A stretch of DNA of 13,766 nucleotides, taken from contig DAOWHM010000022.1 of assembly GCA_030641425.1 (NCBI GenBank), positions 1 through 13,766 of the forward strand, written 5' to 3'. The position numbers were made by a program, and so were the translations under genes. Under the pieces are notes generated by a model. It saw only the letters and a program-made list of their open reading frames with translations, was not told the DNA's origin and did not search any database. The DNA is from Candidatus Bathyarchaeota archaeon. Its GTDB lineage: Archaea; Thermoproteota; Bathyarchaeia; Bathyarchaeales; SOJC01. This document shows positions 21 to 12,519 of the stretch, piece by piece (the stretch's first letter is position 1; the number at the start of each line of letters is the position of its first letter).

Positions 21-1067
21 TTAGTTTCGAGGAGAGTTCTTCCGCTTCTTCTTTGAAAGCTTCGTCAACAGACTTCTAGCAAAAGGCTCTTCGTTCACTC
101 CTCTGACCTTTAGAGCCCCATCTTCTAACGCTTGATTAAAGATCGACTCGCCTTTCTCAGTTCGCAATATAACAAAGGTCCAACCGTTTAACCCCAGGCC
201 TCCCGCTGAGATGTCTGCCAGTTCAGCGCTAAAATCGCTGCAAAGGTGACAACTGTCTCTGACATATTGCTTTGTTTCTGACAAGGGTACACTCGTCGCT
301 TCCCCGGACTTGAGAGAGATAATTATCTTCCCTTTGATGTTCATCTTCTCAATTTCGTTCAAGCTAAGACCTAGTTTGCCTTTGAGGTGCTCTACAAAAA
401 ATCCATCATATGTGAAGCTTTCTGTGCACATCAACCCAATTGTGAAACGTAGCGGGCTCGTGAATTTCTTAAGTGGGAACATTTCGATCTTCCGAATTGC
501 TTGGATTTGACATGGAGTACCTACAAAAGCCAAGCTTTTCTTATCCTCCTTAACTCCCTCACGTAATGCTAGCAGATTAGGCGAATAGCAGTAGCGTGTT
601 CCAGCCCCTTCTAAAATCGCCTCAGGAGTTGTGGCCAATTTGGGAACTGGATAGAAGGGCTTATCCTCTGCGATTCCAGATATGGCTGCACCTTCAATGA
701 CACCTTTCTGCAGGGCATACGATAAGAGAGCAGTGACAAACCCGCCATCTTGGCTTCTACTCAAGATTTTCCCATCAGTTGCTTGGGCTAGAAGAAGACG
801 CTTGTGGATTCCGAAGTCCTCATCTGCTTTTTGTGCCCGTCCAAACACAAATTCTTCAACGTGGGGCCACGACCAATCGTATTTGGGGCAAACTTTAGGG
901 CAGATACCACAGCTCGTGCATTCTTTGACAAGTTTAGGTTGCCCGTGGTGATACTCCAAGCATTTGAGGGGACATACAACCACGCATGTGGCGCAACCTA
1001 CACATCGGTTAGTTAGAACTACATCTTTTTCCAGGGATTCTTCAAAGCCCAACTTGCGACTTTCCAT
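21..1067 (-). CDS. FrhB/FpoF-like coenzyme F420 oxidoreductase beta subunit with two [4Fe-4S] sites
   Basis: Probable cytoplasmic F420H2-oxidising (or F420-reducing) flavo-iron-sulfur protein of the FrhB/FpoF/FdhB family. Using the 350-residue reading from the upstream TTG, the N-terminus holds two ferredoxin motifs: C24-x2-C27-x2-C30-x3-C34 and C52-x2-C55-x2-C58-x3-C62. The FrhB domain follows, with SQDGGFVTALL near 107, FVGTPCQIQAI near 183, GLMCTESF near 213 and CHLCSDFSAELADIS near 275. The tail is lysine/arginine-rich. Start choice: TTG at 1073 abuts the GAGGG Shine-Dalgarno with no spacer, whereas ATG at 1067 sits six bases from it, so I prefer the ATG (348 aa). It lies 85 bp downstream of the GltD-MvhD fusion on the same strand and probably shares its pathway. 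The family assignment is firm. Which partner it serves is inference; it could equally be the F420 module of another complex. Confidence 0.85.
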   Translation of the reverse strand: MESRKLGFEESLEKDVVLTNRCVGCATCVVVCPLKCLEYHHGQPKLVKECTSCGICPKVCPKYDWSWPHVEEFVFGRAQKADEDFGIHKRLLLAQATDGKILSRSQDGGFVTALLSYALQKGVIEGAAISGIAEDKPFYPVPKLATTPEAILEGAGTRYCYSPNLLALREGVKEDKKSLAFVGTPCQIQAIRKIEMFPLKKFTSPLRFTIGLMCTESFTYDGFFVEHLKGKLGLSLNEIEKMNIKGKIIISLKSGEATSVPLSETKQYVRDSCHLCSDFSAELADISAGGLGLNGWTFVILRTEKGESIFNQALEDGALKVRGVNEEPFARSLLTKLSKKKRKNSPRN

Positions 1068-1069
1068 GA

Positions 1070-1087
1070 TCAACCCTCAAAAAGCAT
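1070..1087 (-). other. five-codon leader mini-ORF before the FrhB-like gene
   Basis: On the minus strand AGGAG (1092-1096) is followed at five bases by ATG CTT TTT GAG GGT TGA (peptide MLFEG). Its stop ends two bases before the ATG at 1067, and its GAG-GGT codons form the Shine-Dalgarno of the main gene. This could be a translational-coupling leader or chance. No regulatory codon bias is visible. Confidence 0.2.
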
Positions 1088-1102
1088 TGTATCTCCTCTA
1101 GT

Positions 1103-1113
1103 TATACATAAAT
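1103..1113 (-). promoter_or_regulatory. TATA-like box for the FrhB-like gene
   Basis: The minus strand reads ATTTATGTATA, matching an archaeal TATA box. A start of transcription about 25 bases further on (near 1083) would give a leader of roughly 16 bases before ATG 1067. It suggests the gene can be transcribed apart from the upstream flavoprotein gene. A start near 1083 would exclude the mini-ORF start at 1087, so the two readings compete. Confidence 0.35.
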
Positions 1114-1152
1114 TGTCCGGGTAACTCTGAAACTCTTGGGAAGTTAGCTTCC

Positions 1153-3258
1153 TCACCTGTTGCTGAAGGATATAGGGCCAATGTTACCAAGTTTGACTGT
1201 GAAGCCCTTGATGGCTTTGTTAAGGTCATGTTCTCTACCTGGGGACGAGTGTTCAGTTTGTAGCCGTTCAGGGTTTATTCCTGTTGCTTGAAGCCATCCT
1301 TTAATATCTTTGGCACGCCTCTCTGCAATGGAGCCACCGAAAACATAATGGCAGTCCTTAGGATCGCACCCGATAATTAAGACTCCGTCAGCTCCAAACA
1401 TGAGGGCTCTGAGGACGTGAAGGGGATCAACTCTTCCACTACATTTGACCGAGACTATTTTAGTATTCACTGGCCATTCCGACGCCATTGCATCTCCGTT
1501 AAAAGACCATGTGCAAGCGAAAGCAAGGATACGAGGGTCATTTGTGGACGCCCAGGAAGGTGCGAGATCTTTTATCTGGGTCATTATTGATTCATCCGAG
1601 AAGTTTTGCATGGTTATTGCTTCTGCTGGGCATTCCACAACGCATGTTCCACATCCTTTACAGAGGAGAGGGTCGACTTTTGCAACGGCTTTCTTAACTC
1701 GGATAGCTCCGTATTCGCATATTTTTTCGCAGTTTGCGCAGGCAATGCATCTATCTTCGTCGACAATTGGATCGTCCGCTTCGCAGAGATCTTCTTTCTC
1801 TAAACATTCTGAACAGGGACCGCAAAAGAGACATCTATGGGATTCGAGTATTCCAGCTTCTGATGGAAGTCCGAGCTCAACCTCTTTGAAGCTCCTCAGT
1901 CGTTCTGTTAGCTCAAGGCAGGGCATCGTTTGTCTGGGTTTCTCCTTTAAAGCCTCTACGTCAACAACCCACGCCATCTCAGGTACTTCCTTTGTTCTTT
2001 CCACGTTAAGATCAAGACCTCTCAGGTACCTGTCGATTGAGGTTGCTGCCTTCTTGCCAGCTGCAATGGCTTCAATTACTGAGGCGGATCCGGATACAAC
2101 GTCACCTCCAGCGAATATACCTGGCATCTTAGTTTCAAGTGTAACCTCATCCACTACTACTCTGTTGCCTTTGCCGACCTCGACATCTCTTGGCAAAAAA
2201 GAAACGTCAGGGAGCATACCAATAGCCAACAGCACTGAATTAGCTTGAACTATGAATTCGGATCCTTCAATAGGTATGGGGCGGCGTCGTCCGCTTTCAT
2301 CTGGGGGACCTAACTTCGTCTTGATGCATTCTATCCCCACTGCTTTGTCGTCTTTCCCTAGAATCCTCTTTGGGGTCGTGAGAAATTGGAATTCTACCCC
2401 TTCAAGCTCTGCATCTTTAACCTCTTGTGGATGCGCAGGCATCTCCTGCTGTGACCTTCTATAAATCACTGTTACTCTTGTTGAACCTAGCCGTTTAGCT
2501 GTACGAGCAGCGTCTATGGCAACATTTCCTCCGCCCACAACTACAACTTTGTCTCCAAGCCTAGCATGTGCCCTCGAGGAGGCTTCTTTTAAAAACTCCA
2601 GTGAAAGATATACGCCCTGCAGTTCTTCTCCCTCTATGTTTAGGCTGACACAGCGGTGGGCGCCTGTGGCTACGAGGATCCCATTGAATCCTTGAGTTTT
2701 CAATTCTTCAAAGCTCAAATCCTTACCGATGGAGGTGTTGGTGTAGATTTCCACTCCGGTCTGTCTGATGTAGTCAATCTCTCTGTCTAGCACCTCTTGA
2801 GGTAGTCGATATTCAGGAATGCAATATCTTAAGCAACCACCAGGCTTAGATAAACGTTCAAAAACTGTCACTGGGTAACCTATTTTCGCCAGTTCAAAGG
2901 CAGCTGTTAGACCTGCTGGTCCAGAGCCTATAATCGCAATCTTCTCCTCGTGGGTTTTTGGAGTTGCTTCCAGCTTTTTAATTCCAGAAGAGACTTCGTA
3001 GTCAGCCACGAGCCTTTTCAGAGAACGGATGCTAAGGGGTTCATCAACATCTTTTCGGGTACAAGCGTCTTCACAAGGGCTGAAACAGACTCTTCCACAG
3101 ACAGAGGGAAAAGGGATGGATTGTCGGATGATCTCCAGTGCTTCTTCAAATTTCTTTTGGGCAACAAGTGCAATGTACGCCTGCACATTTATTCCACCAG
3201 GACAAGCCTTCCTGCAAGGAGGATACTTCGCTTTAAGATCTGTAAAAGTGCTAGCCAT
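1153..3258 (-). CDS. GltD/NfnB-like NAD(P)-FAD oxidoreductase fused to ferredoxin and MvhD domains
   Basis: Soluble electron-transfer flavoprotein of 701 aa. Domains in order: an N-terminal GltD-type helical Fe-S domain (C15, C19, then C54-x3-C58-x3-C62-x3-C66); an FAD-binding Rossmann fold with GSGPAG at 111-116 and GG at 140-141; an NAD(P)-binding Rossmann fold with GGGNVAIDAAR at 242-252 and YRRSQQEMPA at 266-275; the second FAD motif GIFAGGD at 380-386; a CxxCxxCxxC stretch (C476-C485); a two-cluster ferredoxin (C504/507/510/514 and C533/536/539/543); and an MvhD-type domain from about 576 to 690 with KCSGRVDP and GCDPKDCHY. The arginine pair in YRR hints at NADP(H). MvhD normally links hydrogenase or F420 modules to heterodisulfide reductase. 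Here it is fused to an NfnB-like core, divergent from metVF and upstream of an FrhB-like gene, which suggests it relays electrons between NAD(P)H, F420 and MetVF (inference). ATG 3258 follows a GAGGACGAG ribosome site. Confidence 0.88.
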   Translation of the reverse strand: MASTFTDLKAKYPPCRKACPGGINVQAYIALVAQKKFEEALEIIRQSIPFPSVCGRVCFSPCEDACTRKDVDEPLSIRSLKRLVADYEVSSGIKKLEATPKTHEEKIAIIGSGPAGLTAAFELAKIGYPVTVFERLSKPGGCLRYCIPEYRLPQEVLDREIDYIRQTGVEIYTNTSIGKDLSFEELKTQGFNGILVATGAHRCVSLNIEGEELQGVYLSLEFLKEASSRAHARLGDKVVVVGGGNVAIDAARTAKRLGSTRVTVIYRRSQQEMPAHPQEVKDAELEGVEFQFLTTPKRILGKDDKAVGIECIKTKLGPPDESGRRRPIPIEGSEFIVQANSVLLAIGMLPDVSFLPRDVEVGKGNRVVVDEVTLETKMPGIFAGGDVVSGSASVIEAIAAGKKAATSIDRYLRGLDLNVERTKEVPEMAWVVDVEALKEKPRQTMPCLELTERLRSFKEVELGLPSEAGILESHRCLFCGPCSECLEKEDLCEADDPIVDEDRCIACANCEKICEYGAIRVKKAVAKVDPLLCKGCGTCVVECPAEAITMQNFSDESIMTQIKDLAPSWASTNDPRILAFACTWSFNGDAMASEWPVNTKIVSVKCSGRVDPLHVLRALMFGADGVLIIGCDPKDCHYVFGGSIAERRAKDIKGWLQATGINPERLQTEHSSPGREHDLNKAIKGFTVKLGNIGPISFSNR

Positions 3259-3325
3259 TATCTCGTCCTCATTTAACGTTTAGAGCATGATTTTCAAGGG
3301 AGAATCCTAAAAGGAAAGGAAACAA

Positions 3326-3335
3326 CCATATTAAA
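3326..3335 (-). promoter_or_regulatory. TATA-like box for the GltD-MvhD gene
   Basis: The minus strand reads TTTAATATGG about 68 bases before the ATG at 3258, which predicts a leader of roughly 45 bases. It lies in the 176-bp divergent region (3259-3434) shared with metV, so both transcripts could be controlled together. Confidence 0.35.
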
Positions 3336-3383
3336 CTTGCGCAGAAAGCCCAAAATGTAACCTTGGCAGGTGCTGACAGAAAT

Positions 3384-3393
3384 TTTATATTAT
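3384..3393 (+). promoter_or_regulatory. TATA-like box for metVF
   Basis: TTTATATTAT preceded by GAAAT matches a BRE-TATA arrangement. Transcription would begin near 3413, leaving a leader of about 22 bases that contains the GGAGTGA ribosome site (3422-3428) before the TTG start at 3435. Confidence 0.5.
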
Positions 3394-3434
3394 AGATTCA
3401 GCTTTCACTGACTTTCTTTGCGGAGTGACCCCTG

Positions 3435-4121
3435 TTGATAATAGTCAAGCAGAAGCCCCTAGAGGAGATTTTTGAGATGACGAAGAACGCAAAGAACTTT
3501 TTAATTGTGGGATGCGACGGATGTGCATCCATAATTCAGGTAGGTGGCGAGAGACAAGCTGAGATTCTGAAGACCTTGCTGGAGATGAAGAGCAGAGTGA
3601 AGGGAGAAGATGGACCAGCATCCCAAGCGATCTCAATCTTGCGTCAATGTGACCGACAGATTGTTGTCTCGTCCCTTAACCCGGTAATAGGAGATTACGA
3701 CACCCTTGTCTCTTTGGGATGTGGCGTAGGGGTTCAAACGCTTGCGGATCTCTACAGAGATAAGCTGATTATTCCTGCTAACGACACTGAATTCATTGGA
3801 ATGCATGACACTAAAGCAGATAAGTTCTACGAGATGTGCAGAGCATGTGGTGACTGTATTCTCTTCGAGACAGGTGGCGTGTGCCCCATAACGAGATGTG
3901 CGAAGAGCCTACTTAATGGTCCCTGTGGAGGACAATCTAATGGGAAATGTGAGGTGGGTGGATGGAAAAAAGAATGCGCGTGGGTTCAAATCTACGAGCG
4001 TTTGAAGGCTCGAGACCGTCTAGACTTGTTCACGAAGTTTAGGCCTCCAAAGGACTATAGAGTTTCAGGACATCCCAGGGAACTTGGCAACGAGATCTTA
4101 GGAGAGGACGCTGCGACTTGA
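3435..4121 (+). CDS. metV: MetV-like methylenetetrahydrofolate reductase accessory subunit
   Basis: Partner subunit of MetF in the acetogen-type MetVF reductase, thought to bring electrons to the MetF flavin through its cysteine-bound metal centres. The 228-residue protein is rich in cysteine. The N-terminal part has GCDGC (C27, C30), C72 and LGCGVGVQ (C96). The C-terminal part is the MTHFR_C-type domain with C135-x2-C138-x2-C141, C150, C155, the signature NGPCGG (C164), C172 and C181. The TTG start is supported by GGAGTGA six bases upstream. Its stop overlaps the start of metF by 4 bp, so the two are almost certainly translationally coupled. The family is confidently recognised. The identity of the C1 carrier (H4F or H4MPT) cannot be read from the sequence. 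In Moorella MetVF is encoded with HdrABC and MvhD; here a divergent MvhD-fusion protein takes that place. Confidence 0.88.
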   Translation: MIIVKQKPLEEIFEMTKNAKNFLIVGCDGCASIIQVGGERQAEILKTLLEMKSRVKGEDGPASQAISILRQCDRQIVVSSLNPVIGDYDTLVSLGCGVGVQTLADLYRDKLIIPANDTEFIGMHDTKADKFYEMCRACGDCILFETGGVCPITRCAKSLLNGPCGGQSNGKCEVGGWKKECAWVQIYERLKARDRLDLFTKFRPPKDYRVSGHPRELGNEILGEDAAT

Positions 4122-5032
4122 CTAAAGAAGCTTACAGCGAACTGATGAAACAGATAAACGCTGGCAAATTCGTATTCACTGGAGAACTTGAACCGGTTAA
4201 GACTACTAGGCTCGATGAGGTTATTGAAGGAGCCAAAACCCTAAAGGAACACGTTGTAGCCATCAACATCACTGACAACCCTACTGCCTTCGGCTACATG
4301 AACGCCCTAGTCCCTGCCTATATGATTCAAAAAGAGGCTGGAGTAGAAGCTGTTTACCAGATGACCACGAGAGACCGTAACCGCCTAGCCTTAATCTCAG
4401 ATGTACTCGCAGCAGGAGCGTTAGGTATAAAGAACATACTAGCGTTGACGGGTGACCACACAACTATAGGAGATACTCCACAGGCGAAACCCGTCTTCGA
4501 CTTGGATTCAGCCACATTCGTTTATATGCTGAAAAAAATGATGGATGAAGGAGTAGATCTCAACAACAATGAGATTGAAGATCCTCCAAAATTCAACATT
4601 GGAATTGCAGCCGCCCCAAACGCAAACCCTTTAGAACCAGAGCTTTTGAAGATCGAACGAAAGGTCAAACTCGGAGCAGACTTCGTTCAAACACAATGCG
4701 TATACAGCGTCGAACAAGCAAAAAACTTCTTAGACGCAGCAGCATATTTGAACATTCCAATACTTGTAGGTGTCGCTCCATTCAAATCACTCTCCATGAT
4801 GAAATGGATGGTCAAGTTTGTACCAGGCATAAAGGTACCTGAAGAGATTCAAGAATCTCTACGTAAGGCCAAGAAGACTGGTGGGAAAGAGGCTGTGTAT
4901 GAAATAAACATCGAAATTTTTGGGGAACTACTGCGAGAAATTCGGAAAACGACTAATGCTGCAGGTATCCACACCATGGCAATAGGTTTCGAGTGGATCG
5001 TGCCAAAAATAATTGAAAGAGCCGGATTCTAG
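4118..5032 (+). CDS. metF: Methylenetetrahydrofolate reductase (MetF family)
   Basis: Reduces the methylene group on the pterin carrier to methyl, as an FAD-bearing TIM barrel acting in the cytoplasm together with MetV. The length (304 aa) is normal for short bacterial/archaeal MetF. Visible motifs are TGELEP with the probable catalytic glutamate E23, ITDNP near 51, TTRDRNR at 83-89 (flavin-site region), ILALTGDH at 107-114 and DFVQTQCVYS at 188-197. The start is TTG inside the TTGA overlap with the metV stop; GGAGAGG lies about ten bases upstream, inside metV. In archaea MetF homologues may act on H4MPT derivatives instead of folate. A true Mer is encoded 2.1 kb downstream, so this organism appears to have two enzymes for the methylene-to-methyl step. 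Confidence 0.9.
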   Translation: MTKEAYSELMKQINAGKFVFTGELEPVKTTRLDEVIEGAKTLKEHVVAINITDNPTAFGYMNALVPAYMIQKEAGVEAVYQMTTRDRNRLALISDVLAAGALGIKNILALTGDHTTIGDTPQAKPVFDLDSATFVYMLKKMMDEGVDLNNNEIEDPPKFNIGIAAAPNANPLEPELLKIERKVKLGADFVQTQCVYSVEQAKNFLDAAAYLNIPILVGVAPFKSLSMMKWMVKFVPGIKVPEEIQESLRKAKKTGGKEAVYEINIEIFGELLREIRKTTNAAGIHTMAIGFEWIVPKIIERAGF

Positions 5033-7151: not shown

Positions 7152-8168
7152 ATGACTGACTTCGGCATTGAGTTTGTACCTCGAGACCTTTACTGGAAAA
7201 CAACCTTCTACGCCATACAAGCTGAAAAAACAGGGTTCAACACTCTGTGGATAACAGATCACTTCAACAATAGAAATGTCTACGTATCATTAGCCATAGT
7301 CTCAGCCTACACAGACAAGATAAAATTCGGACCAGGGGTAACGAATCCATATCTGATTCATCCGATAGTCACGGGTCAAGCCATTTCAACACTTAACGAA
7401 ATAGCACCAGGCAGAGTTGTTTGTGGAATAGGTGCAGGAGATAGAACAACACTACAATTGGTCAATGTGAAGCCTACAAGACCTTTGTCAACAATAAGGG
7501 AAGCTGTTGAGATAATTCGAGGAATCTCTTCTGGAAGAAAGGTGAAGATGGAAGGTCGAGCTTTCACAGTTTTGGGGGGTAAATTGAACTTCAAAGTAGA
7601 AAGCAAAGTCCCCATCTTCATCGGAGCTCAAGGACCTAAGATGCTAGCATTAGCAGCAGAAATTGGAGATGGTGTTTTAATCAATGCTTCTCACCCTGAA
7701 GACGTAGCAAGAGCTATGGAATTTATCAAGAATGGGATCATCAAGGCAGGAAAGACTAAGGAAGATTTGACTATAGCGACATATACGTCCTTATCTGTAG
7801 CGAACAAAGCTGAAAAGGCAAAAAAGGCAGCCATTCCTGTGGTTGCCTACATTGTAGCTGGCTGCCCTGAATCAATCCTTAGCAAGCATGGTATATCAAT
7901 GGAGACTGCCACTGCAATCCGTCACGCAATAGTTCAAGGCAGATGGAAAGAGGCTTTCTCAAATATAACCGAAGAAATGATAGGAGCTTTCTCCATATGT
8001 GGAACACCTGAAACCGTTGTTGAGAAGATTAGCAGGTTAGTTAGTATAGGGACAACCCAAATCGTGGTCGGGTCACCGATTGGACCAGACATACGTAAAT
8101 CTATTAACATGATTGCAGCAGAGGTATTTCCACATTTTAAGACAAAGGAGGAATTTGTAGGTGATTGA
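7152..8168 (+). CDS. mer: F420-dependent methylenetetrahydromethanopterin reductase
   Basis: Catalyses methylene-H4MPT + F420H2 to methyl-H4MPT, or the reverse, as a cytoplasmic enzyme of the luciferase-like TIM-barrel superfamily. The 338-residue sequence follows methanogen Mer closely in motif order: DFGIEFVPRD at the N-terminus, WITDHFNNRNVY at 33-44, FGPGVTNPY at 59-67 (the region of the non-prolyl cis peptide in the family), GIGAGD at 92-97, IGAQGPKMLALAAEIGDG at 157-174, LINAS at 176-180, AFSICGTPE at 279-287 and VVGSPIGPD at 305-313. These distinguish it from generic F420-dependent luciferase-like oxidoreductases. The ATG follows AGAGGA at eight bases. The stop overlaps the GTG start of the RAM gene by 8 bp, so the two are coupled. 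It duplicates the step assigned to MetVF. Confidence 0.93.
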   Translation: MTDFGIEFVPRDLYWKTTFYAIQAEKTGFNTLWITDHFNNRNVYVSLAIVSAYTDKIKFGPGVTNPYLIHPIVTGQAISTLNEIAPGRVVCGIGAGDRTTLQLVNVKPTRPLSTIREAVEIIRGISSGRKVKMEGRAFTVLGGKLNFKVESKVPIFIGAQGPKMLALAAEIGDGVLINASHPEDVARAMEFIKNGIIKAGKTKEDLTIATYTSLSVANKAEKAKKAAIPVVAYIVAGCPESILSKHGISMETATAIRHAIVQGRWKEAFSNITEEMIGAFSICGTPETVVEKISRLVSIGTTQIVVGSPIGPDIRKSINMIAAEVFPHFKTKEEFVGD

Positions 8169-8854: not shown

Positions 8855-9697
8855 TTGATAGTTAAAGTTGGAGTTTTCAAATGCGGCAATATCGGAACTG
8901 CGCCAATATTGGAGCTGCTCCTTGATGAATTGGCTGATCGCAAGGATCTGACTGTGCGAACTGTATCAACAGGGTCTAAAATGGATGTTGAAGCGGTTGA
9001 GGAAACTGTTGAGAAGATTTTTGAGTTCTCGCCGGATCTTCTGCTTTTCATCTCACCAAACACATCTGCCCCTGGACCTGCAAAAGCAAGGGAAGTATTC
9101 TCGAGAAAAAAAGTGCCCACGGTTATATTCACAGATGGACCAGGCAAACGAGTAAAGGATGAGATTGAAAGACAGGGCTTAGGCTATGTAATAATCATGG
9201 GTGATCCCTTGATTGGAGCACGAAAGGAATTTCTTGATCCCCTAGAGATGGCAATCTTCAACGCTAATGTGATAAAGGTCCTGGCTTGCACAGGAGTCTT
9301 AAGAAGGATATTTCGTGAAGTCGACAAATTGATCCTTGCTATTAAAAGCGGAGCCAGTCTGTCTCTACCAAAGTTAAAAATCGACACGGACGATATTCTG
9401 GACGCCGGAGACTTCAAGAACCCTTACGCCATGGTGAAGGCAATGGCAGCCTACGAACTGCTAAAGAAGGTAGCTGAAATTAATGTGCGAGCTTGCTTCA
9501 TCGAGAAAGATAAGAAGAAGTACGTTCCCTTCGTCGCTTGCGCACACGAAATAGTGCAAAAGAGCGCTCTTCTTGCTGAAGAAGCAAGGGAGATTGAGAA
9601 ATATGGAGACACCCTTCTGCGAACTCCTCATGCTAAAGATGGCAGGCTCAAAACTAAAGACAAGTTATTGTTTCCGCCAAAGACATCAGACCAGTAG
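8855..9697 (+). CDS. mtd: F420-dependent methylenetetrahydromethanopterin dehydrogenase
   Basis: Interconverts methenyl-H4MPT+ and methylene-H4MPT with F420H2/F420; a soluble cytoplasmic enzyme known only with F420 and tetrahydropterin substrates. The length (280 aa) matches the family, which is about 276 aa in methanogens. Recognised motifs are GVFKCGNIGTAP at 6-17, SPNTSAPGPAKARE at 67-80, GDPLIGARKEFLDP at 116-129, NPYAMVKAMAAYE at 189-201 and RTPHAKDG at 256-263. The start is TTG, since no ATG or GTG precedes the conserved N-terminus; the ribosome site (TGGGGT, 8845-8850) is weak and a short leader is predicted. Its product is the substrate of Mer, encoded just upstream with the RAM genes, so the two form consecutive F420-linked steps. 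Confidence 0.94.
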   Translation: MIVKVGVFKCGNIGTAPILELLLDELADRKDLTVRTVSTGSKMDVEAVEETVEKIFEFSPDLLLFISPNTSAPGPAKAREVFSRKKVPTVIFTDGPGKRVKDEIERQGLGYVIIMGDPLIGARKEFLDPLEMAIFNANVIKVLACTGVLRRIFREVDKLILAIKSGASLSLPKLKIDTDDILDAGDFKNPYAMVKAMAAYELLKKVAEINVRACFIEKDKKKYVPFVACAHEIVQKSALLAEEAREIEKYGDTLLRTPHAKDGRLKTKDKLLFPPKTSDQ

Positions 9698-9846: not shown

Positions 9847-12519
9847 TTGGGTCTCGAGAAACTCGATAGGCTGTTCAATCCAAGAAGAATAGCAGTTGTG
9901 GGAGCTAGTGACAGAGAGGGATCCGTTGGCGCGAAACTGCTTCGAAACTTAGTTGGTGTAGGATATAAAGGCGTAGTATATCCAGTTAACCCATTCAGGC
10001 CTACAGTTCAGGGTATTACTGCTTACCCAGCAATGAAGAGGGTACCTCGCCAGGTAGACTTGGCAATCATCGCAACACCAGCCCATACGGTTCCCCAGGT
10101 TGTCGAGGAATGTGGTAAAGCAGGAGTTTCAGGGTTGGTGATTATTTCTGCGGGCTTTAGAGAGAGTGGTGCTGAAGGTAAAGACCTTGAAAAGAGAATT
10201 CTTGAACTGAAGAACCGCTTCGACATGAGGATAATTGGACCCAACTGTCTTGGCTTAATGCGACCAAGCGTTAAGTTAAACGCTACATTCGCCAATAAAA
10301 CAGCTGATCCTGGGAAGATTGCGTTCATCTCTCAAAGTGCTGCACTGTGCGCTTCAGTTCTAGATTGGGCTTCTGAAGCTCATGTGGGATTCAGCGCTGT
10401 TGTATCTGTAGGTTCCATGTTGGATGTGGACTTTGGGGATTTAATTGACTATTTTGGAACCGATCCTCAAACGAAGAGTATTGTTCTTTATATCGAGTCT
10501 ATTAAGAACGCACGGAAATTTCTAAGTGCTGCACGAGGATTTGCGAGGGCGAAACCAATTGTAGTTGTGAAAGCTGGAAAATTCCCTGAGAGTGCTGAAG
10601 CTGCAATTTGCCACACTGGAGCGTTATGTGGAGAAGATGCTGTATATGATGCAGCTTTCAGACGTGCTGGGATTGTTCGTGTAGAAGCAATAAGTGATCT
10701 CTTTAGCTGTGCTGAAACCTTAGCTATGCAGCCCAATCCCAGAGGCGCTAATCTCACGATAATCACTAACGCAGGGGGTCTAGGGGTGATGGCGACAGAT
10801 ACTCTGATTGCTAAAGGAGGAAAACTCTCACCACTAGGCGATGAAACTATTCAAGCCTTGGATGGCAAATTACCTTCCTACTGCAGTACTCAGAACCCCA
10901 TTGACATCCTTGAAGAGGCGACTACCGAGAGATTCCGAGAGGTTATGAAGATATGTTTCAAGGATCCTGCAAGTAACGGTTTTCTGATTATCTACACTCC
11001 TCAAGGAGCTTCAGACCCTGTTGATACAGCAAAAGCAATTGTAGAACTCGCCAGAGAAACTTCAAAACCTGTTCTCACGTCTGTTATGGGCGAAGATGAC
11101 TGCTGGAGAGCACGGCAGATTCTTCGCAAGAATGGTATTCCTGCCTTCACTACCCCGGAGCAAGCAGTCTCCACTTTCATGTACATGTGGGGCTACGCGC
11201 AAAACCTAGAACTCCTCTATGAAACCCCTGAAGAACTCGCCATTGAACTGTCAATCCCAGTGTTTCTCAGGGAAGTATTGAGAGCGGCCTTGGACGAAGG
11301 ACGTCAAGTCTTGACAGAGCCTGAATCAAAACAATTTCTAAATGCATACGGAATTCCAACGATAAAATCCGTGGTTGCTGTAACTCCCAAAGAAGCTGTC
11401 AAGGTAGCGTCTGGAATTGGATATCCCGTCGTGATGAAAGCCCTCTCTCCCCAAATAACTCATAAATCCCAAGTTGGAGGGGTGATCCTCGATGTGCGCT
11501 CAGAAAAAGAAGTTGCGGAATCTTTCAAGGATATAGTTGACAGAGTCAAAAAACATAGACCTGAAGCTGAATTCAAAGGCGTTATACTTCAACCAATGAT
11601 TAAAAGAAAAGGGTATGAACTACTAGTTGGCTCCAAGAAAGACCCCCAGTTTGGCGCAGTAATCCTGTTCGGGATGGGCGGGGTAGCAACTGAGTTGATG
11701 AAGGACGTGAGTATTGGCCTTCCTCCTCTAAATCAAGTGTTAGCGAGAAGGTTGATGGAGAGAACCGCTATCTATCAGCTTTTCTCCAGCTCGGACAGAA
11801 GCCGAGTGAACTTTAAACTCCTCGAAGAAATTTTAGTTAAGTTTTCGCAACTCGTAATAGATTTCCCCGAGATTAAGGAGATGGATATTAACCCTCTCAT
11901 CGTGGATGAAGATGAAGCCGTTGCTGTGGACGCTCGAATCGTTGTTGAATCACAAAGCATCCCGACTGAACCTAAACCTCATAGACATCTCGTCATTACC
12001 CCTTACCCAAAGAAGTATATTGATCAGTGGAAGTTGAAGGATGGGACACCGATTCTCTTTCGTCCCATAAGACCTGAAGATGAAACTCTCCTCTACAACT
12101 TGTTCAAGTCCTTCTCTGAGGAAACAATGCGTTTCCGTTTCTTCCAGATAATCAGGGAAATGTCTCACGAAACGTTAACCAGATACTGCAACATAGACTA
12201 CAATCGAGAGATCGCCATAATTGCAGAGAAAGGAAAGAACGAGAAGAGGAAGATCATCGGAGTAGCTCGTGTGATAGTGCAACCAGACCAAAAAAACGGA
12301 GAATTCGCAGTTGCAGTGGGAGACGAGTGGCAAGGACAAGGATTAGGATCTAAGTTAGTGGACATTATAATCAAGATAGGGAGAGACTTGGAGCTGGAAA
12401 ATATCTATGGCGACGTTCTCTCAAACAACTTTAAGATGTTCCAGTTATGCAAAAGAAAGAGCTTTAAGATAGAAACAGTGGACGAAGAAACTTCGAAAGC
12501 TATACTAAACTTGACCTAA
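9847..12519 (+). CDS. acd: ADP-forming acetyl-CoA synthetase (alpha-beta fusion) with C-terminal GNAT domain
   Basis: Converts acetyl-CoA (or another acyl-CoA), ADP and phosphate into the acid, ATP and CoA. The 890-aa order is: CoA-binding Rossmann domain (about 7-130, with VVGASDREGSVG), succinyl-CoA-synthetase-like alpha domains (about 150-460, including GPNCLG at 131-136 and ISQSAAL at 161-167), ATP-grasp beta domain (about 480-705, with SPQITHKSQVGGV near 534), and a GNAT acetyltransferase domain (about 735-885, acetyl-CoA motif DEWQGQGLGSKL at 826-837). H256 in CHTGAL and H539 in THKS match the two histidines of the phosphoryl relay in active enzymes. This argues against a Pat-type acetyltransferase with a dead synthetase part, which has the same architecture. 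The TTG start fits GGAG at 9831 and the conserved LFNPRRIAVVGAS start. Downstream of mtd it could give the ATP-yielding step of acetate formation. Confidence 0.9.
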   Translation: MGLEKLDRLFNPRRIAVVGASDREGSVGAKLLRNLVGVGYKGVVYPVNPFRPTVQGITAYPAMKRVPRQVDLAIIATPAHTVPQVVEECGKAGVSGLVIISAGFRESGAEGKDLEKRILELKNRFDMRIIGPNCLGLMRPSVKLNATFANKTADPGKIAFISQSAALCASVLDWASEAHVGFSAVVSVGSMLDVDFGDLIDYFGTDPQTKSIVLYIESIKNARKFLSAARGFARAKPIVVVKAGKFPESAEAAICHTGALCGEDAVYDAAFRRAGIVRVEAISDLFSCAETLAMQPNPRGANLTIITNAGGLGVMATDTLIAKGGKLSPLGDETIQALDGKLPSYCSTQNPIDILEEATTERFREVMKICFKDPASNGFLIIYTPQGASDPVDTAKAIVELARETSKPVLTSVMGEDDCWRARQILRKNGIPAFTTPEQAVSTFMYMWGYAQNLELLYETPEELAIELSIPVFLREVLRAALDEGRQVLTEPESKQFLNAYGIPTIKSVVAVTPKEAVKVASGIGYPVVMKALSPQITHKSQVGGVILDVRSEKEVAESFKDIVDRVKKHRPEAEFKGVILQPMIKRKGYELLVGSKKDPQFGAVILFGMGGVATELMKDVSIGLPPLNQVLARRLMERTAIYQLFSSSDRSRVNFKLLEEILVKFSQLVIDFPEIKEMDINPLIVDEDEAVAVDARIVVESQSIPTEPKPHRHLVITPYPKKYIDQWKLKDGTPILFRPIRPEDETLLYNLFKSFSEETMRFRFFQIIREMSHETLTRYCNIDYNREIAIIAEKGKNEKRKIIGVARVIVQPDQKNGEFAVAVGDEWQGQGLGSKLVDIIIKIGRDLELENIYGDVLSNNFKMFQLCKRKSFKIETVDEETSKAILNLT

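Follow-up and report, generated by a model that had tools for sequence, protein, structure and literature searches.

How archaeal MetF/MetV exchange electrons has been called an open question (PMC9012536), and work on Bathyarchaeia acetogenesis published in 2021 did not settle where their F420H2 comes from or what their orphan FrhB proteins do (PMC7886697). Both questions bear on a locus of a Candidatus Bathyarchaeota archaeon in which metV and metF lie divergently from a gene for a 701-residue protein that joins a GltD-type flavoprotein core, a ferredoxin (Fd) and an MvhD domain, with a gene for an FrhB-like F420 protein behind it. The stretch analysed, here called the window, has 13,766 nucleotides and is the entire contig C117 of a Bathyarchaeia metagenome-assembled genome (MAG; 1.0 Mb, 79.5% complete). 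We consider it probable, with some reserve, that the fusion is the electron-input subunit of MetVF and carries electrons from NAD(P)H via GltD, iron-sulfur (FeS) clusters and MvhD to MetVF, with docking, carrier and direction predicted. MetVF is the enzyme that forms the methyl group in the acetyl-CoA pathway of CO2 fixation, and the system appears to be a part swap, in uncultured Bathyarchaeia, of the MetVF wiring known from acetogenic bacteria.

The fusion protein and its association with MetVF

Open reading frames (ORFs) for the four genes named in an earlier sequence-only reading of this DNA were found at the positions and on the strands given in Table 1, and their domains were confirmed with Pfam. 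The metV and metF genes are adjacent with a 4-base overlap, and 176 bases separate the fusion from metV. The proposed make-up of the 701-residue protein was borne out by Pfam matches to Fer4_20, Pyr_redox_2 (129 bits), Fer4 domains and FlpD/MvhD (102 bits, cut-off 22.3). The fusion is one real gene and not a run-on, because the identical architecture occurs in many further protein-database clusters, 32 relatives (full-length or short of the first residues only) align across all domains, and a single-chain model reached a predicted local distance difference test score of 80.5 and a predicted template modelling score of 0.74. Cysteines 582, 606, 631 and 636 of the MvhD domain are invariant in these relatives. 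By structure comparison the GltD core is nearest in fold to NfnABC, StnABC and NfnL, with residues 11-446 well covered, and the first part of the Cys motif that follows the core matches the N-terminal RCLxC stretch of NfnL (fusion residues 442-479 to NfnL 8-45).

The fusion was found in 15 of 256 Bathyarchaeia genomes (13 whole, two cut by contig ends). All 15 also encode a close MetF (at least 77% identity; in G519 through an 85% identical piece), and any MetF match at 1e-15 occurs in 73 of the 256, which gives a Fisher p of 2e-9 that is indicative only since the genomes are related. In every one of the 14 genomes that allow the test, the fusion gene lies next to metVF in divergent orientation; G519 is represented by locus L050, which was assigned to it by position. 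G500 is not among the 14, since both of its genes are cut off where their contigs end. The window's family (f2) comprises ten genomes with fusion and MetVF and two, G305 and G517, with neither. G106 was rejected as a further genome lacking both: only 57 bp separate the end of its FrhB from the contig end, and Mer begins on another contig, 1,895 bp in, so that the fusion and MetVF probably sit in an assembly gap. In all five fusion genomes outside the family MetV and MetF form one chain. Such single chains occur in several lineages (L038, L141-L146, L154, L158, L159).

The link between fusion and MetVF is therefore strongly supported, and it exists without HdrABC, as the sequence-only reading had supposed. 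The joint conservation that the sequence-only reading had asked for was borne out, although FrhB directly follows the fusion in the window's family only, as far as gene order outside it could be seen. The arrangement also occurs on an Actinomycetota contig, L078, where ACS- and CdhD-type genes, a GltD-Fd-MvhD gene (689 aa), metV and metF follow each other on one strand. Since the L078 GltD falls outside the starred bathyarchaeal GltD clade in the tree, the arrangement was probably built twice. The ACS beta-type gene of the same contig (L078:3-1913) is split by an intein-like LAGLIDADG insert.

Beyond metF the cluster encodes, in order, a protein with weak resemblance to Elf1, two unknown proteins, a regulator of the AsnC/Lrp type, Mer, two short proteins with AsnC domains, Mtd and an ADP-forming acyl-CoA ligase that carries a GNAT domain. 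The ligase (9847-12519, 890 aa) has its alpha and beta parts joined and the GNAT acetyltransferase domain at its C-terminus. Genes for carbon monoxide dehydrogenase/acetyl-CoA synthase (CODH/ACS) lie near the locus in relatives (L134, L142, L144, L036-L038, L141, L045); the locus belongs to the acetyl-CoA pathway. Mer and Mtd did not figure in the sequence-only account. Mer is a gene separate from MetVF and scores above the curated equivalog threshold, which leaves the genome with two candidates for methylene reductase.

Table 1. Features of the window (H4MPT, tetrahydromethanopterin; residue numbers refer to the fusion)
Feature	Position	Strand	Basis
FrhB-like F420 oxidoreductase, 350 aa, N-terminal dicluster ferredoxin-like stretch	21..1073	-	ORF, Pfam, structure relatives
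GltD-ferredoxin-MvhD fusion, 701 aa	1153..3258	-	ORF, Pfam, alignment of relatives, model
MvhD/FlpD domain, residues 577-694, four invariant Cys	1177..1530	-	Pfam, alignment, trees
Two-cluster [4Fe-4S] ferredoxin domain, residues 497-556	1591..1770	-	Pfam; sequence comparison
Cys motif C476/C479/C482/C485/C492	1783..1833	-	Invariant in 32 relatives
GltD/NfnL-type core, residues 10-415: N-terminal FeS sites, FAD, NAD(P) site	2014..3231	-	
NAD(P) site motifs in GltD core: GxGxxA (242-247), YRR (266-268)			
Divergent intergenic region common to fusion and metV	3259..3434	.	AT-rich TATA-like stretch near 3383 (by eye; putative)
MetV, FeS subunit of methylene-tetrahydropterin reductase, 228 aa	3435..4121	+	Pfam PF12225
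MetF, flavin-containing catalytic subunit, 304 aa	4118..5032	+	Pfam PF02219
Mer, F420-dependent methylene-H4MPT reductase	7152..8168	+	TIGR03555, 396.6 bits, cut-off 348.7
Mtd, F420-dependent methylene-H4MPT dehydrogenase	8855..9697	+	NF002162, 375.8 bits, cut-off 297

Phylogeny of the GltD core and the MvhD tail

The two halves of the fusion have different nearest relatives. Among 11 proteins compared, its GltD part is most like Bathyarchaeia formate dehydrogenase-like (223/401) and hydrogenase-locus (209/404) proteins, and its ferredoxin (41/57 identical) and MvhD (55/121) are closest to HdrA-MvhD proteins of MetVF loci (L143). For tree building, duplicate loci and long rows (L148, L119) were dropped and large groups thinned beforehand. 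In the GltD tree the fusion is sister to the hydrogenase-locus GltD of Hdr-hydrogenase loci (support 100/98, starred), with the hydrogenase-locus rows L053, L062 and L069 grouping with their own kind. In the Fd-MvhD tail tree with the wide sample the fusion tail is nested among HdrA tails (92/81), and thinner trees are concordant (99/96 starred, 94/66 and 89/79). A single clade of fusion MvhD and hydrogenase-locus GltD-linked MvhD was rejected (p 0.021). The group includes eight HdrA tails; MetVF is no more than 500 bp from five of them and 3.6 kb from one.

HdrC-like and HdrB-like (CCG) genes follow HdrA at L149, L181 and L252, and no HdrB/C-like genes were seen in the available stretches of 18 fusion loci from 13 genomes. 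One genus, g28, contains the HdrA type in G502 and the GltD type in G501, each adjoining fused MetVF. The trees of both parts, the distribution of HdrBC and the g28 pair together suggest a domain swap, which the trees support in part moderately: GltD would have taken the place of HdrA ahead of a tail that docks on MetVF, and HdrBC would have been lost. A derivation of the fusion GltD from bacterial HdrA-GltD proteins was rejected, since those lie outside the starred bathyarchaeal clade. Several bacterial loci (e.g. L087, L088) do have GltD near MetVF, but inside a full HdrA with a separate MvhD.

Unfused forms of the GltD/MvhD pair occur on Hdr-hydrogenase. Bathyarchaeia hydrogenase loci L055, L066 and L070 (similar ones among L053-L076) encode GltD-Fd (~570 aa) and then an MvhD with a helix-turn-helix (~250 aa), a row that continues with a two-part HdrA (~1000 aa), MvhD, HdrC-like, HdrB-like (CCG), MvhG-like and NiFe-hydrogenase proteins. 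At L247, L248 and L249 an HdrA-like pair, the second member of which (712-717 aa) ends in MvhD, is followed shortly after by a separate GltD gene.

The trees also bear on the possibility that MetVF has as its partner a canonical HdrABC-MvhD from another part of the genome, leaving the fusion with a different task; the sequence-only reading had named such a partnership as a ground for abandoning its proposal. An Hdr-Mvh set is present in the source genome: contig C45 carries HdrA-MvhD, CCG (HdrB-like), HdrC-like and NiFe-hydrogenase genes, and C15 an MvhD and an MvhG-like gene. These genes sit with hydrogenase genes and not beside MetVF, however, and the tail of this HdrA-MvhD groups with hydrogenase-locus tails, apart from those of MetVF loci, which makes such a partnership very improbable.

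Electron route, carrier and the FrhB-like protein

In the route that we favour, the GltD core would oxidise NAD(P)H at one FAD, with NADPH likelier than NADH, and electrons would pass over [4Fe-4S] clusters to the [2Fe-2S] cluster of the MvhD tail. The tail would dock on MetVF, where MetF would reduce methylene-H4MPT to methyl-H4MPT; the reaction may also run backwards, in methyl oxidation. The key precedent for docking through MvhD is Sporomusa ovata, whose MvhD pulls down MetF, HdrA and HdrB, although HdrBCA-MvhD did not co-purify with MetVF (PMC9430772).

The carrier is probably H4MPT, with methylene-H4MPT as substrate, because none of eight fusion genomes has a formyltetrahydrofolate synthetase or a FolD above its cut-off (one sub-threshold FolD match, in G520; positive controls were detected). 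A similar argument for H4MPT as the MetVF carrier was made for ANME-1 archaea (PMC9012536). Mch is present in nine of 14 fusion genomes and in three of three others checked, and was not found in the fusion genomes G000 (the source genome), G515, G243, G490 and G501; G368 has five Mch-family matches (C13, three on C2, C26), all over the cut-off. Mer occurs in 12 of the 15 fusion genomes and is absent at 1e-60 in G368, G519 and G500. G368, a MAG listed as 100% complete, has the fusion, MetVF and FrhB, with Mtd directly joined to metF; in this one MAG the fusion and MetVF look like the sole methylene reductase.

The nearness of the GltD fold to NfnABC, StnABC and NfnL also fits a bifurcating reductase, in which the GltD flavin would send part of the NADPH electrons to MetVF and part to ferredoxin, after the scheme put forward for the Hdr-type MetVF of Moorella (PMC8760232). 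Yet no NfnS/PyrK-type subunit was seen among the nine window proteins scanned with Pfam (the rest of the genome was not searched), the HdrA flavin is absent, and no tetrahydrofolate (H4F) enzymes were found. The methylene/methyl couple of H4MPT lies at about -320 mV, so that with this likely carrier there is little driving force for bifurcation. The flavin-based bifurcation raised as an option by the sequence-only reading thus found no support; we regard it as quite improbable and favour one unbranched electron chain.

In the window's family the FrhB-like protein would probably add an F420 port onto the same wire. It has FrhB_FdhB_N and _C domains and weaker N-terminal dicluster-ferredoxin matches below Pfam cut-offs. 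Its gene lies directly downstream of the fusion in all ten family members that have the fusion; the G515 copy is broken and the G521 copy cut. In G515 two partial pieces lie on C1 near 198794 and 87258, ~111 kb apart and one within a 632-aa frame, which may reflect rearrangement or an assembly fault. In the other five fusion genomes FrhB is 17 kb off (G301), across MetVF (G492), not found (G501), or on another contig, with the gene after the fusion out of view (G490, G500). FrhA/FrhG partners are absent from the window, which ends 20 bases after FrhB (the rest of the genome was not searched). At E 1e-60, FrhB is present in 14 of 15 fusion genomes and in 110 of 241 without the fusion, which rules out that it is specific to a fusion-MetVF machine.

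Whether FrhB instead works on its own as an F420 reductase that serves other partners such as CODH or ferredoxin, outside the MetVF machinery, comes close to an even call. Among solved structures, the full-length relatives nearest to it are the zeta subunit of an F420-reducing CODH complex (best match 8riu_B, E 1e-55, residues 13-346) and FwdI (PMC11493965). Where the fusion is lacking, FrhB is often near Mtd, F420-synthesis or CODH genes: among 40 FrhB loci without an adjoining fusion, the stretch retrieved includes Mtd in 16, and in others CofD, CofE, CODH, Mch or FwdA-like genes (one example per neighbour-gene family was checked). A free-standing role fits less well with the invariable position behind the fusion in the window's family. 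In HdrABC-FdhAB complexes, moreover, subunits of the FrhB type are in contact with MvhD. The structure-search matches included chains of 7bkb and 8rvu. Membership of FrhB in a MetVF complex is thus plausible for the window's family only; FrhB is common without fusion and MetVF.

NpdG, the F420:NADP reductase (TIGR01915), exceeded its cut-off in none of 17 genomes (weak matches in four), so a link between NADP and F420 seems missing. A soluble NADPH:F420 (or ferredoxin) oxidoreductase made of fusion and FrhB, which balances carriers while MetVF is merely co-regulated and fed by free ferredoxin, would fill this gap. Such an enzyme would also agree with the tight fusion-FrhB gene pair in the window's family, with the higher frequency of FrhB in fusion genomes, and with the activity of the MetVF of C. 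ljungdahlii (PMC8515935) and S. ovata (PMC9430772) with reduced ferredoxin. However, the lack of NpdG does not single out the fusion, because G106, G305 and G517 share it, and G305 and G517 have FrhB with neither fusion nor MetF. Outside the family it is MetVF and not FrhB that stays by the fusion, and the tail phylogeny goes with MetVF loci. We therefore judge this alternative unlikely.

MvhD is one of several solutions at MetVF loci. We located 86 MetF places, 69 of them within 65 MetVF loci (which include near relatives and are non-independent) and 17 outside, ten of these 24-30% identical. A protein ending in MvhD lies within 500 bp of MetVF in 25 of the 65 loci: 12 are GltD-Fd-MvhD, four HdrA-Fd-MvhD and nine of a tandem Fd-MvhD type (318-404 aa). 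Four further loci (L136, L142, L150, L183) have a cut or broken fusion or HdrA adjoining MetVF. The other 36 have none within 500 bp, with L138, L148 and L184 having one 2.2-5.8 kb off; many MvhD-free loci are intact on both sides, such as most f16 loci adjoining CdhA. The tandem proteins, in which no flavin domain was found, stand directly before metVF, some overlapping it (L147, L154, L158, L159, L180, L186-L189). They are a candidate for another MetVF input module, of which no description was found in the literature searched. At L170-L179 (family f16) the gene order is reversed to metF-metV, in most cases divergently from cdhA, and no MvhD lies nearby; MetVF is possibly ferredoxin- or CODH-linked there.

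Several observations weigh against the fusion as the input subunit of MetVF. With Mer in the same cluster an F420H2-driven MetVF looks redundant, and Mch was not found in the source genome, which is incomplete. The support for the nested tail is moderate and not starred, and a narrower 17-row tail grouping was rejected by the approximately unbiased test, three more HdrA tails nesting inside. Of the eight grouped HdrA tails, nearness to MetVF was seen for six but not for L250 and L251, and no HdrB/C-like genes were seen at the HdrA-type loci L138, L143 and L192, where stretches are short or cut. A single origin of the L078 tail and the fusion tails stays unrejected (p 0.14) and L078 is a long branch, so the independence of the two arrangements is probable only. 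FrhB is widespread without the fusion. No natural MvhD-MetV fusion occurs among the best 120 MetVF relatives, all of which have both MetV and MetF Pfam domains (492-576 aa). Finally, at 40 of the 65 loci, some of them cut by contig ends, the 500 bp around MetVF contain no MvhD gene; MetVF can therefore work with other donors, and it has several.

A wider proposal is put forward tentatively, and we find it doubtful. The system would be a fifth class of MetVF reductase, HdrABC-free and H4MPT-specific, in which NADPH (via GltD) and F420H2 (via FrhB) meet on one MvhD wire that doubles as NADP-F420 link and as alternative to Mer; the Fd-MvhD tail would then be a common MetVF plug for swapped GltD, HdrA and tandem-ferredoxin sockets.

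Comparison with known systems

Methylene-H4F reductases are known up to type IV (PMC8760232). No description of a GltD-MvhD fusion with MetVF and without HdrABC was found in the literature searched (open PMC papers, no preprints), which agrees with the novelty first suspected for this locus. With a defined set of four genes, and relatives in which one part or another is present or missing, the proposed route can be tested in vitro. A domain swap would single out MvhD as the adaptor of MetVF and bears on how MetVF is wired in acetogens.

The closest counterpart is the Hdr-type (type IV) HdrCBA-MvhD-MetVF of Moorella thermoacetica and S. ovata, with which the system shares MetVF, MvhD as adaptor and a flavoprotein that reacts with NAD(P)H. 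At the window metV and metF are adjacent and MvhD is encoded with MetVF, as in that type, but the HdrA core is replaced by GltD with MvhD fused to it, no HdrB/C-like genes were seen at fusion loci, H4MPT takes the likely place of H4F, and FrhB is added in one family. The sequence-only reading had this complex purified with HdrABC and MvhD, which overstates the record: one paper speaks of enrichment of the Moorella complex (PMC8760232), another says that it resisted purification (PMC9430772). Actinobacteria with hdrA-mvhD-metVF-hdrCB have been reported (PMC7325909), a layout unlike L078.

Bacterial loci with a GltD-inserted HdrA (~1,470 aa; e.g. L086, L087, L088, L093, L097) likewise bring GltD, MvhD and/or MetVF together, but their GltD lies within a full HdrA and outside the bathyarchaeal clade, and their MvhD is a separate gene. 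Type III HdrA of ANME-1 and Bathyarchaeota and HdrA/NfnB fusions (PMC12054007, PMC9012536) share a GltD wired to ferredoxin and Hdr-type carriers, whereas the fusion has no HdrA core, starts its GltD near residue 10, continues with ferredoxin and a C-terminal MvhD, and has MetVF as its probable partner. The transhydrogenases NfnL, NfnABC and StnABC contain a GltD/NfnL flavoprotein too, which here is fused to ferredoxin and MvhD with no NfnS/PyrK partner in the window. The F420H2-dependent HdrA2 of Methanosarcina acetivorans, an HdrA-MvhD fusion, also has MvhD behind flavoprotein and ferredoxin, but its flavoprotein is HdrA and its partner HdrB2C2 (PMC5296606). For FrhB, the ACDS zeta subunit and FwdI of Ca. 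Ethanoperedens (PMC11493965) have an N-terminal ferredoxin and an FrhB domain like residues 13-346 of the FrhB-like protein, whose putative partner is the fusion with MetVF and not CODH or Fwd. In type III MetVF-RnfC2 a third subunit likewise gives MetVF access to pyridine nucleotides (PMC8760232), although RnfC2 is another kind of protein than the fusion.

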